DNA of 37,322 nt, taken from contig MHQP01000031.1 in assembly GCA_001820685.1 (NCBI GenBank), positions 1 through 37,322 of the forward strand, written 5' to 3'. Both the position numbers and the translations under genes were made by a program. A model generated the notes under the pieces. It searched no databases and was not told where the DNA came from. It saw only the letters and a program-made list of their open reading frames with translations. Positions 15,625 to 36,060 of the stretch are shown piece after piece. How positions within the stretch are numbered: position 1 is the stretch's first letter; the number at the start of each line of letters is the position of its first letter. This DNA comes from Candidatus Sungbacteria bacterium RIFCSPLOWO2_01_FULL_47_32 (GTDB lineage Bacteria > Patescibacteriota > Minisyncoccia > Sungbacterales > GWA2-42-14).

Positions 15625-16032
15625 TTACAGTTTAGATACAAATTTCGTTTTTATCGGAAGCTTATGCCCGGCAAGGCGCATTGCTTCCTTAGCGATGTCT
15701 TTCGCCACGCCATCCATTTCAAAAATGATACGCCCAGGCTTGATCGGAAAAACATAGTGGTCAACATTTCCCTTCCCTCCTCCTAGGGTCATTTCAGCGG
15801 CTTTTTTAGTCACCGGTTTATCGGGAAAAATACGGATCCAAACCTTTCCTCCGCGCTGGATGTAGTGCATCATTGCTTTTCGCGCGGCCTCAATCTGGCG
15901 GGCTGTTATCCATTTCGGTTCTTCGGCTTTAAGCCCGAAGGAGCCGAATGCAAGTTCAGTTCCCCGAGTATCATTCCCGCTCTTTGGCCTCTTTTGCCAT
16001 TTTCTGTGTTTTACTTTTTTTGGTTGTAGCAT
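15625..16032 (-). CDS. rplP: 50S ribosomal protein uL16
   Basis: A 135-residue protein near the peptidyl transferase centre and A-site tRNA elbow. Diagnostic parts: VKHRKWQKR at the start, [20 protein letters not shown] and [20 protein letters not shown]. The intact start is preceded by a two-stem mobile element and, beyond it, by a second, slightly different copy of the first 12 codons (16130-16164), so the 5' end of this gene appears to have been replaced. Confidence 0.97.
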
Positions 16033-16045
16033 AATTTTAGCTTTT

Positions 16046-16129
16046 GTCCCGCTATCTATCAGGTATTATTTAAAGGATAGCGGGATCCCGACTTCATTAT
16101 TTTAAAATATTTATGCTGAGCGTCGGGAC
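16046..16129. mobile_element. Two-stem repeat element (family F), rplP copy
   Basis: An 84 bp element made of two adjoining hairpins: GTCCCGCTATC pairs with GATAGCGGGAT, and TCCCGAC pairs with GTCGGGA, meeting in the centre as GATAGCGGGATCCCGAC. The loops are AT-rich. The same design, stem for stem but with different loops, occurs at 24732-24814 in reverse orientation. The GCTATC end faces the intact rplP and the GTCGGGA end faces the rplP remnant. Confidence 0.8.
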
Positions 16130-16164
16130 CACTTTCTATGTTTTATTTTTTTTGGCTGCAGCAT
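16130..16164 (-). pseudogene. Remnant of the rplP 5' end
   Basis: Read on the minus strand this is ATG followed by codons for LQPKKIKHRK and all but the last base of a Trp codon, which is completed by the element end. Compared with the intact rplP start ([12 protein letters not shown]), 5 of 36 bases differ, all transitions, and only one changes an amino acid (Ile/Val). The remnant ends exactly where the repeat element begins. The pattern of differences is that of two functional alleles, not of a decayed duplicate. Confidence 0.8.
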
Positions 16165-24643: not shown

Positions 24644-24667
24644 GCGGCGAAATTACGCCGCTTTTTT
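24644..24667 (+). terminator. Intrinsic terminator of the second lipoprotein cassette
   Basis: The stem GCGGCG-AAATTA-CGCCGC is followed by six T, starting three bases after the stop codon. Confidence 0.85.
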
Positions 24668-24731
24668 ATTTCTTCCCTTCGGCAATCTGCGCCGCAATAT
24701 TGTTTGGAACTTCCTCGTAGTAATCAAACTC
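24666..24731 (-). pseudogene. Remnant of the fusA 3' end
   Basis: On the minus strand this encodes [21 protein letters not shown] and a TAA stop, a second copy of the EF-G C-terminus. The intact gene ends [21 protein letters not shown] with TAG. Most of the roughly nine base differences are synonymous. The remnant begins exactly at the end of the two-stem element. There is no start codon or upstream frame, so it is not translated as such. Confidence 0.85.
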
Positions 24732-24814
24732 TCCCGACGTTCTATTAAAAAATAATTTAAAGAAGTCGGGATCCCGCTATCCTCCATATATTAGTCTTGA
24801 ATAGATAGCGGGAC
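24732..24814. mobile_element. Two-stem repeat element (family F), fusA copy
   Basis: The 83 bp element has TCCCGACGTTC pairing imperfectly with GAAGTCGGGA, then CCCGCTATC pairing with GATAGCGGG, joined in the centre as GTCGGGATCCCGCTATC. It matches the rplP copy (16046-16129) in reverse orientation, with the same stems and unrelated AT-rich loops. The GATAGCGGGAC end faces the intact fusA and the TCCCGAC end faces the remnant, as at rplP. Confidence 0.8.
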
Positions 24815-24820
24815 ATGTAG

Positions 24821-26932
24821 CTACTTCTTACCCTCGGCAATCTGAACTGCAATATTGCTTGGAACTTCCTCGTAGTAATCAAACTCCATAGAATAGCTTG
24901 CGCGTCCCTGCGTAAGCGAGCGGATTGCCGTTGCGTACCCGAACATTTCTGAAAGCGGAACTTTCGCGCGGATAGTTTTTATACCAAGTCCCCTATCGGA
25001 CATTTCTTCAATGCGGCCTCTTTTTGAATTAAGGTCTCCCGTAACCTCGCCGAGAAAGTTTTCCGGAGTTACGACCTCAACCTTCATGATTGGTTCAAGC
25101 AAAACAAGCTGGGCACGCTTCGCAACTTCCTGGAGCGCCATGGAACCCGCGATCTTAAACGCCGCTTCAGACGAGTCAACATCGTGGTACGAGCCATCAT
25201 AAACGGCAACGCGAACATCCACCAACGGATACCCCGCGAGTACACCTCTGTCCATCGCTTCTTTAACGCCCTTTTCAACTGCAGGAATATATTCTTGAGG
25301 AACGATTCCCCCCTTGATTTCATTTTCAAATTCAAAACCTTTCCCGCGTTCGAGCGGCTCAATCCGAAGCCACACGTGTCCATATTGCCCGCGTCCTCCC
25401 GACTGGCGAATATATTTTCCTTCCGCTTCGGCGGTCTTTTTGATGGTTTCCTTATAGGCAACCTGCGGACGCCCAACGTTCGCTTCAACCGAAAACTCCC
25501 TCTTCATGCGGTCAACGATAATTTCAAGATGGAGTTCGCCCATGCCTGAAATGATTGTTTCTCCCGTTTCCGTGTCTCCCTTAATTCTGAAGGTCGGGTC
25601 CTCATCAGAAAGGCGCTTCATGGCCATACCCATCTTTTCCTGGTCGGCTTTTGTCTTCGGTTCAATCCTCAACGAAACGACTGGTTCCGGAAATACGATT
25701 TTTTCAAGAATAATCGGCTTTTCCGGGTCGCAAAGAGTATCCCCCGTCCGGGTCATTTTCAACCCAACAAGCGCCCCGATATTCCCGGCTTGTATTTCTT
25801 TCAGCTCTTCCCGCTGGTCCGCGTGCATTCGCAAAATACGCCCGACCCGCTCCTGGTCTCCTTTTGTAGCATTCAAAACATAACTTCCGGCCGTAAGCGT
25901 TCCGGAATAAACGCGAAAATACGTCAATTGGCCGACGAACGGGTCGGTTTGCAGTTTGAAAGCAAGGGCCGCAAACGGCGCGTCGTCTCTTGCTTCGCGG
26001 GTGATTTCGGCGCCCGATTTCGGGTCAATTCCTTTTACCGGCGGAAGATCCAGCGGGGAAGGAAGAAAATCAACAACGCCGTCGAGCACCAATTGCACGC
26101 CTTTATTTTTTAAGGCCGTTCCGCAAAATACCGGAACCAGGCGATATGAAAGTGTTGCCGTGCGAAGAGCTTTTTTAATTTCATCCGCCGCAATTTCCTT
26201 TCCCTCAAGAAAGCGTTCCGTAAGAGAATCATCCGTTTCTGCGACTTTTTCCCAAAGATTGTTATGCCATTTTTCTGCTTCGGCTTTCAACTCTACGGGA
26301 ATATTGGAAAGAATTATTTTTTCTCCTCTCTCCCCTTCAAACGTGATCTTCTTCATGCGTATAAGGTCAACAACGCCTTCAAAATTCTCCTCACTACCGA
26401 TTGGAACCATAACCGGAACGGCATTCGGAGTAAGGCGATCCCAAATGGAACGAAGCGCTTTGTCCCACGATGCCCCCATTCGATCGAGTTTGTTTATAAA
26501 ACAAATTCTGGGGACTTTGTATTTGTCCGCTTGTCTCCATACTGTTTCCGATTGTGGTTCCACCCCGGCAACCCCGTCAAAAACAACGACTCCGCCATCA
26601 AGAACCCGGAGCGAACGTTCTACTTCGACGGTAAAATCCACGTGACCTGGAGTATCAATAATGTTTATGCGGTATTCATTCTCGTGTGTCTGTTTTTCGG
26701 CGGGCAAGTAAGTCGGCTTCCAGAAGCAGTTTGTTGCAGCCGATGTAATGGTAATTCCGCGTTCTCTCTCCTGCTCCATCCAGTCCATGACGGTGTCCCC
26801 CGTGTGAACCTCGCCTATTTTGTGGGAAACTCCCGTATAAAAAAGAACACGCTCCGTTACGGTCGTTTTCCCTGCATCAATATGTGCGATTATCCCGATG
26901 TCTCTTGTTCTTTCAAGAGGATAGTCTCTCAT
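24821..26932 (-). CDS. fusA: Elongation factor G
   Basis: The 703-residue translocase GTPase moves tRNAs and mRNA after peptide bond formation. P-loop [19 protein letters not shown], the switch region with [25 protein letters not shown] and NKLDRMGA are intact. Domain IV includes the tip region around [11 protein letters not shown], and domain V ends [15 protein letters not shown]. Its last 20 codons are duplicated on the far side of the adjacent repeat element, so the gene end may have been exchanged. It is preceded by the 207-residue orphan gene rather than directly by rpsG. Confidence 0.99.
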
Positions 26933-35732: not shown

Positions 35733-35766
35733 TTTCCGCCTAGGGCGGATCCGCCTCCGGCGGAAA
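35733..35766. repeat. Palindromic repeat after pepA
   Basis: TTTCCGCC...GGCGGAAA encloses a second palindrome around GGCGGATCCGCC, so the element can fold as one long or two short hairpins. It lies in an AT-rich spacer that otherwise shows no gene. Confidence 0.7.
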
Positions 35767-35815: not shown

Positions 35816-35886
35816 CGGGCTATAGTATATTGGTAGTACAACAGGCTGGGGGTCTGTTAGGCTGGGTTCGATTCCCAGTAGCCCGA
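35816..35886 (+). tRNA. tRNA-Pro (anticodon GGG)
   Basis: The 71 nt folds as a complete cloverleaf: acceptor CGGGCTA/TAGCCCG, D-stem GTAT/GTAC (last pair G-U), anticodon stem ACAGG/TCTGT, loop CTGGGGG with anticodon GGG at its centre, a 4-base variable region, and T-arm CTGGG-TTCGATT-CCCAG. The first pair is C1-G72 with discriminator A73, the bacterial proline identity set, and G37 follows the anticodon. CCA is not encoded and must be added. Confidence 0.95.
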
Positions 35887-36060
35887 CTGAACGAAGTGAG
35901 GGAGGGATAAGCGAGCAAACTGCTTTGCTCGCGTCTGGGAATCGAAGGGCGAGCGCTGTGCTGAAAGCACCGCGAGCCCGGGAATTTTCGAGGAGAAAAT
36001 TGATTCCCCGCGGCCCGAAAATTGTGTGTGAAGAAATGAAAAGGGCCCAGGCTTATGGCC
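35887..36060. repeat. Palindrome cluster downstream of tRNA-Pro
   Basis: No gene. Seen in order: GCGAGCAAA-CTGC-TTTGCTCGC (35911-35932, perfect); CTGGGAATCGAA (35935-35946), the reverse complement of the tRNA's own T-arm; GTGC-TGAAA-GCAC; GGGAATTTTC paired with GAAAATTGATTCCC around GAGGA; and GGGCC/GGCCC near 36040-36060. The last could act as a weak terminator. Confidence 0.65.

Follow-up and report, generated by a model that had tools for sequence, protein, structure and literature searches.

Beside the intact rplP gene of a Patescibacteria genome lies a second, diverged start of the same gene, separated from it by a small palindromic element, and this locus raises the question of how a conserved translation gene comes to be accompanied by a broken copy of itself. 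The window, i.e., the whole stretch of 37,322 nucleotides that was analysed, belongs to the genome referred to below as G000. An 84 bp element beside rplP, matching another beside fusA, had been predicted from this sequence and proved to be real: the two are related double hairpins sharing the 17-mer GTCGGGATCCCGCTATC, which occurs 2 times in the window (0.02 expected) and at just 2 sites in the whole genome, even with 2 mismatches allowed. The location originally given, 16046-16129, was right apart from one surplus base on each side, and with its exact ends mapped the rplP-side element is an 82-bp double hairpin at 16047-16128 (minus strand). It is composed of hairpin B at 16047-16085 (minus strand; arms TCCCGCTATC at 16047-16056 and GATAGCGGGA at 16076-16085) and hairpin A at 16086-16128 (minus strand; TCCCGAC at 16086-16092 and GTCGGGA at 16122-16128), the latter being conserved as TCCCGACG...GAAGTCGGGA. 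The second copy lies downstream of fusA at 24732-24813 (plus strand; A at 24732-24771, B at 24772-24813). After trimming, the rplP element has a folding z-score of -4.2 and the fusA element one of -6.2, and no shuffled sequence folded equally well. A comparison of the window with Rfam gave no match other than tRNA, and none of the Rfam intron models, by which a self-splicing intron would be recognised, was found in the window at the gathering threshold; the strict full-element pattern had no match in the genome contigs searched. No ORF for an endonuclease or other enzyme is present within either window structure, in line with the expectation that the element has no visible protein; for related arrangements this expectation fails, as these enclose GIY-YIG endonuclease ORFs.

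At both sites the GTCGGGA stem joins the remnant of the neighbouring gene without a gap, as had been described. The remnant of the outer rplP copy (16129-16164, minus strand) comprises the start codon and 11 codons (MLQPKKIKHRKW), and the complete rplP gene, encoding 135 aa, is located at 15625-16032 (minus strand). The duplicated start extends over 40 nt with 85% identity and terminates exactly at the hairpin; the five transitions and one conservative change noted earlier were recovered, the amino-acid change being I/V. On the side facing the intact gene, CAAAAG at 16041-16046 (minus strand) continues the broken rplP copy beyond the insertion (TGG^CAAAAG; the same place in genome G021 reads CAGAAAG), and the rplP hairpin is therefore a clean insertion within the outer rplP copy, without target duplication. 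The fusA hairpin is built likewise: a 3'-end remnant of 21 codons plus stop (24666-24731, minus strand), duplicated over 65 nt with 89% identity, abuts the hairpin A side, while the ATG of the broken copy (24814-24816, minus strand; CAT on the plus strand; ATG^GAG, the same in G005 and G008) is left on the side of the intact fusA gene, which is complete at 24821-26932 (minus strand; 703 aa).

One process that might produce such junctions is site-specific recombination, in which non-autonomous integrative elements would enter tRNA anticodon arms and gene ends by means of a tyrosine or serine integrase acting in trans, with an att site that restores the gene. Anticodon arms of tRNAs and gene ends are classical att sites, which counts for this model, as does a resolvase-type gene beside the tRNA-Lys/Ala nest on contig C18 of G000. 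However, the two rplP copies diverge already at the fourth base from the junction and thus offer no identical crossover core, no recurrent recombinase was found within 4 kb of the hairpins, and the nested tRNAs described below are complete, with acceptor and anticodon stems unlike those of the outer copy, so that we regard this explanation as improbable.

Comparison with other genomes of the order shows that the same codons are used repeatedly. A hairpin pair after the fusA stop codon is found in 3 of the 23 genomes (G000, G005 and the closed genome G008, a single 923-kb contig), which represent three genera, and all three fusA remnants begin at the same codon (M^E). The rplP hairpin is present in 2 of the 22 genomes that have rplP (G000 and G021, from two families), both times at W^Q, and a search of 384 genomes of the class with the rplP junction pattern returned exact matches in these two only. 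The hairpins at the recurring fusA and rplP codons belong to different subfamilies. Across the four remnant/intact pairs, 34 of 41 differences fall at third codon positions (P 9e-11), and 5 amino-acid changes are seen against 29 expected at random, with none in G005. Since the differences are mostly at third positions and change few amino acids, each remnant was a working allele until recently; both copies were therefore under protein-level selection, and they look like alleles of different lineages rather than a gene and its decaying copy. Codon usage in the remnant fits the host better than that of the intact end in G000 (fusA) and G005, which suggests that the intact end is the more recent arrival there, while the direction is slightly reversed for fusA of G008. 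The donor of the inserted end was not traceable within the order because synonymous sites are saturated at this distance, and the same saturation of third positions left no breakpoint to be found in sliding third-position identity along fusA.

Identical broken/complete junctions in other genera, together with this allele-like divergence, support the proposal of an element that travels with a replacement gene terminus. We consider it probable, at roughly 0.6, that a gene-breaking, gene-replacing element, common in this order of Patescibacteria, left the structures at rplP and fusA behind as scars, and, to the same degree, that this is a homing-type element which breaks into a conserved gene and brings along a functional copy of that gene or gene end. 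The word terminus suits fusA and rplP; for tRNAs it is too narrow, as there the whole gene is replaced.

Genes for tRNAs are interrupted much more often than fusA and rplP. A scan for nests, in which a tRNA gene counted only when both of its own halves lay outside it, returned at least 7 of the 32 scannable tRNA genes of G000, each enclosed by a broken tRNA gene of its own kind (0.12 expected), and 4 of the 70 tRNAs of G008 (0.25 expected); the control genome G357, from another family, contained no real nest, its Leu match being a protein repeat. A generic scan of G008 yielded five nests besides the fusA case. The native tRNA-Thr(TGT) of this genome is split in the anticodon loop, its halves resuming exactly around an insertion that reads, in order, hairpin A, TCCCGACAAAAATTT (TCCCGAC), a complete but different tRNA-Thr, and TTGAGCAAATTTACCGTCGGGA (CGTCGGGA). 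Nested replacement tRNAs, which are of the same isotype as the gene they interrupt, often lie in this way within the loop of a TCCCG...CGGGA hairpin, and the acceptor and anticodon stems of the nested complete tRNA both differ from those of the outer copy. Of the 17 genomes of the order that were read, about 10, counted by eye, have a nested tRNA-Thr(TGT) at TTTTG^TA, and in G004 and G016 a second end type is seen (...GGGTGAA^). The same nested architecture occurs at tRNA-Cys, Ala, Thr and Gly in other Patescibacteria of several candidate phyla, and in G008 tRNA-Met and tRNA-Ile form nests of three levels.

Two simpler arrangements were considered for these tRNAs and ruled out: an insertion in a simple tandem tRNA duplicate, because the native 3' half lies beyond the cargo tRNA, and a replacement of the tRNA 5' half alone, because both stems differ between the copies. 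A series of tRNA-Lys remnants with several different hairpin insertions within it was observed in G000 (L034, G000:C18:88000-91125), adjoining tRNA-Ala and a resolvase-type recombinase gene.

Most of the genomes are metagenome-assembled and conserved genes are typical points of mis-assembly, so that strains could have been mis-joined at these genes; yet the single 923-kb contig of G008 contains both its five nests and its fusA case, and assemblies made independently for several candidate phyla show these architectures as well, which makes an assembly artefact most improbable. It also seems very unlikely that the outer genes are still functional, for instance as split tRNAs whose halves are held together by the paired arms and joined at the RNA level. 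Some outer tRNAs are indeed perfect, such as the G008 tRNA-Thr with 7/7 acceptor pairs and the G000 tRNA-Asp, which is identical to the inner one, but decay, truncation or a mosaic structure is seen in many of the outer halves, and the fusA and rplP remnants cannot be rejoined.

In the tRNA-Asp nest of G000 (L237, G000:C1:11608-11683), the inner tRNA is enclosed by a split copy with 100% identity to it, and the native 3' flank has been copied too. A rescue copy can thus originate within the species itself, and the pattern fits local duplication as well as import. The flank GCAGAGTATT reappears on both sides, as a direct copy on one and as an inverted copy on the other, which hints at the origin of the arms.

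Several nests additionally contain small GIY-YIG ORFs, positioned between the outer half and the intact tRNA. In G008 they occur inside nests of tRNA-Ser (twice) and tRNA-Met (once), in G000 inside those of tRNA-Gly and of tRNA-Ala, the latter ORF being degenerate and within an A-type hairpin, and at L073 of a Staskawiczbacteria genome (minus strand, around 3966) such an ORF stands immediately between the 5' part of a tRNA that a hairpin interrupts and a tRNA that is intact. Of the 10 GIY-YIG genes of G008, 3 are no more than 150 nt away from a tRNA, where 0.31 would be expected (P 0.003; small counts), and 2 of the 5 in G000 are likewise near a tRNA by a rough estimate from equally small counts (P 0.002); GIY-YIG genes are present in 23/23 genomes, and their link with the nests is a purely spatial one. 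Among the proteins that recur near hairpins, only housekeeping genes and these small GIY-YIG proteins were found. The architecture, the reuse of the same sites, the same-isotype tRNAs in hairpin loops, the triple nesting and the GIY-YIG ORFs in several nests can all be read directly in the genomes.

A covariance-model search detected the hairpin family in 9 of the order's 23 genomes, and scanning with a pattern returned 41 loci, mainly from Patescibacteria and Omnitrophota, plus a few unrelated matches; neither hairpin A nor the fusA and rplP ends were found in viral contigs, and no phage attP was seen. The original prediction that a partial duplicate always lies on the GTCGGGA side was not borne out, as the majority of copies have no flanking duplicate at all, e.g., the one upstream of ruvA in G005. 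Furthermore, two double hairpins of G008 are in frame and open (frame read by eye): one of 69 nt in uvrB (505502-505571, coding for SRRSLYDVGVPTSLSKDINEASG) and one of 75 nt in hppA (G008:C1:376687-376762, coding for SRRSDATSDVGIPTSLLKDKNGASG). Given that most copies lack a duplicate and that two lie in frame, a double hairpin by itself does not imply replacement. The predicted polarity holds for the GTCGGGA subfamily in Patescibacteria, in which any duplicate present ends exactly at hairpin A, but does not extend to the hairpins in G005 and G021 or to the Omnitrophota copy L048, where the remnant is on the opposite side. In two genera, double hairpins stand seemingly at the same place upstream of rplJ (L009 in G003, L017 in G005), which corresponds to the L10 leader region and shows no gene duplicate.

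Clean hairpin insertions at so many unrelated places, including the in-frame ones in uvrB and hppA, are what would be expected of a passive double-hairpin transposable element, MITE-like and derived from RPEs or IS200/IS605, that inserts randomly at N^YA; insertions in essential genes would then survive only where an imported or local duplicate already existed, and the broken copies would be harmless landing pads. Some hairpins clearly entered tRNAs that were already dead (Lys; Gly(ccc)), and Y1 transposases are encoded in 17 of the 23 genomes (G000 and 16 others), both of which speak for this model. Against it, chance does not account for the identical codons hit in fusA of three genera and in rplP of two families, nor for the anticodon-loop point shared by tRNA-Thr and tRNA-Cys, and the replacement tRNA gene sits inside the hairpin and not merely nearby. 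Y1 transposases do not track the nests either, as none was found in G001, G016 and G021, all of which have nests. We thus consider passive insertion unlikely, though less so than the other alternatives.

For the preferred reading, a gene-breaking and gene-replacing element, we infer cleavage, homing, a moving enzyme and an order of events as follows. The element would enter a conserved translation gene at a set position, without target duplication, and would arrive with, or be rescued by, a complete copy, i.e., the whole gene in the case of tRNAs, the 3' end of fusA or the 5' end of rplP, leaving the old copy as a remnant flush with the hairpin. A homing endonuclease, for which the GIY-YIG proteins are candidates, would cut the uninterrupted gene; the break would be repaired from an element-bearing chromosome or from imported DNA, and the rescue copy would make the insertion survivable. 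Genes for tRNAs would be short enough to be carried whole, whereas in fusA and rplP only the broken end may need replacing, or the other half may have been lost by recombination between the long homologous bodies. As for the 82-bp double hairpins, these would represent non-autonomous relatives without cargo. More tentatively, and with somewhat less than an even chance, the whole may represent a natural cleave-and-rescue selfish system in Patescibacteria, in which one hairpin can carry a GIY-YIG homing endonuclease and the other a complete substitute for the essential tRNA or gene end that is destroyed, and which would spread by homing, with stacked invasions giving rise to nested tRNAs.

Several known systems share parts of this arrangement. 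Synthetic cleave-and-rescue gene drives follow a similar logic, in that an essential gene is broken and a working copy of different sequence is supplied, but these are engineered, and cleavage is only inferred here. Rickettsia palindromic elements (RPEs) are likewise small palindromes found in frame in protein genes, as in uvrB and hppA of G008, but differ in sequence, and two hairpins are present here; we know of no RPE that carries, or is paired with, a replacement gene. The IS200/IS605-derived MITEs, PATEs and REPINs also have hairpin ends and cause no target duplication, but the elements described here show no link with a Y1 transposase, and to our knowledge none of those has been reported to carry a copy of the gene it breaks. 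Gene-restoring integrative elements resemble the present ones in their conserved gene targets and in leaving one intact and one truncated copy; in contrast to them, the elements here are tiny, lack an integrase, may hold a whole tRNA in the hairpin loop and have no identical core at the rplP junction.

The closest precedent is provided by the mobile endonuclease ORFs (mORFs) of fungal mitochondria, described in atp6 of Allomyces and in atp6, atp9, cox2 and nad3 of Glomus, where the native gene end gives way to a foreign one whose differences are largely synonymous, the remnant lies beyond the element and homing endonuclease ORFs are associated (PMC3630166). As in the mORFs, a gene is interrupted and its end is present in two diverged versions, one of them functional (fusA three times, rplP twice). 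The mORFs are organellar, with an endonuclease ORF at each described site, while the present elements are bacterial and palindromic, their window copies have no ORF, 5' ends (rplP) and whole tRNAs are replaced as well, and nests occur. In the open-access literature searched, no report was found of a bacterial counterpart that combines palindromic ends with nesting and the replacement of whole tRNAs. If the proposed reading is true, selfish DNA repeatedly breaks and replaces the essential housekeeping genes of an abundant, uncultured group of bacteria. Cleave-and-rescue gene drives would then have a natural equivalent in bacteria, tRNA and ribosomal genes would have a route by which they are replaced across species, and one source of tRNA mis-annotation would be explained. 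The arrangement also offers defined target sites and candidate endonucleases that are open to direct testing.

Two further tRNA loci are of note. About 20 tRNAs are packed into 3 kb of G008 (G008:C1:439820-442718), the tRNAs elsewhere in this genome being scattered, and this dense array is possibly of viral origin. Within the window, a GGATCC-centred double hairpin (TCCGCC..GGCGGATCCGCC..GGCGGA; 35733-35766, plus strand), which resembles the two elements at rplP and fusA without clearly belonging to their system, is located about 50 nt upstream of tRNA-Pro(ggg) (35816-35886). A lookalike of the 3' end of this tRNA stands 110-130 nt downstream, with an inverted partial T arm (CTGGGAATCGAA) between; the similarity, judged by eye, would make TTGATTCCCCGCGGCCCG at 36000-36017 (plus strand) a possible outer 3' remnant.
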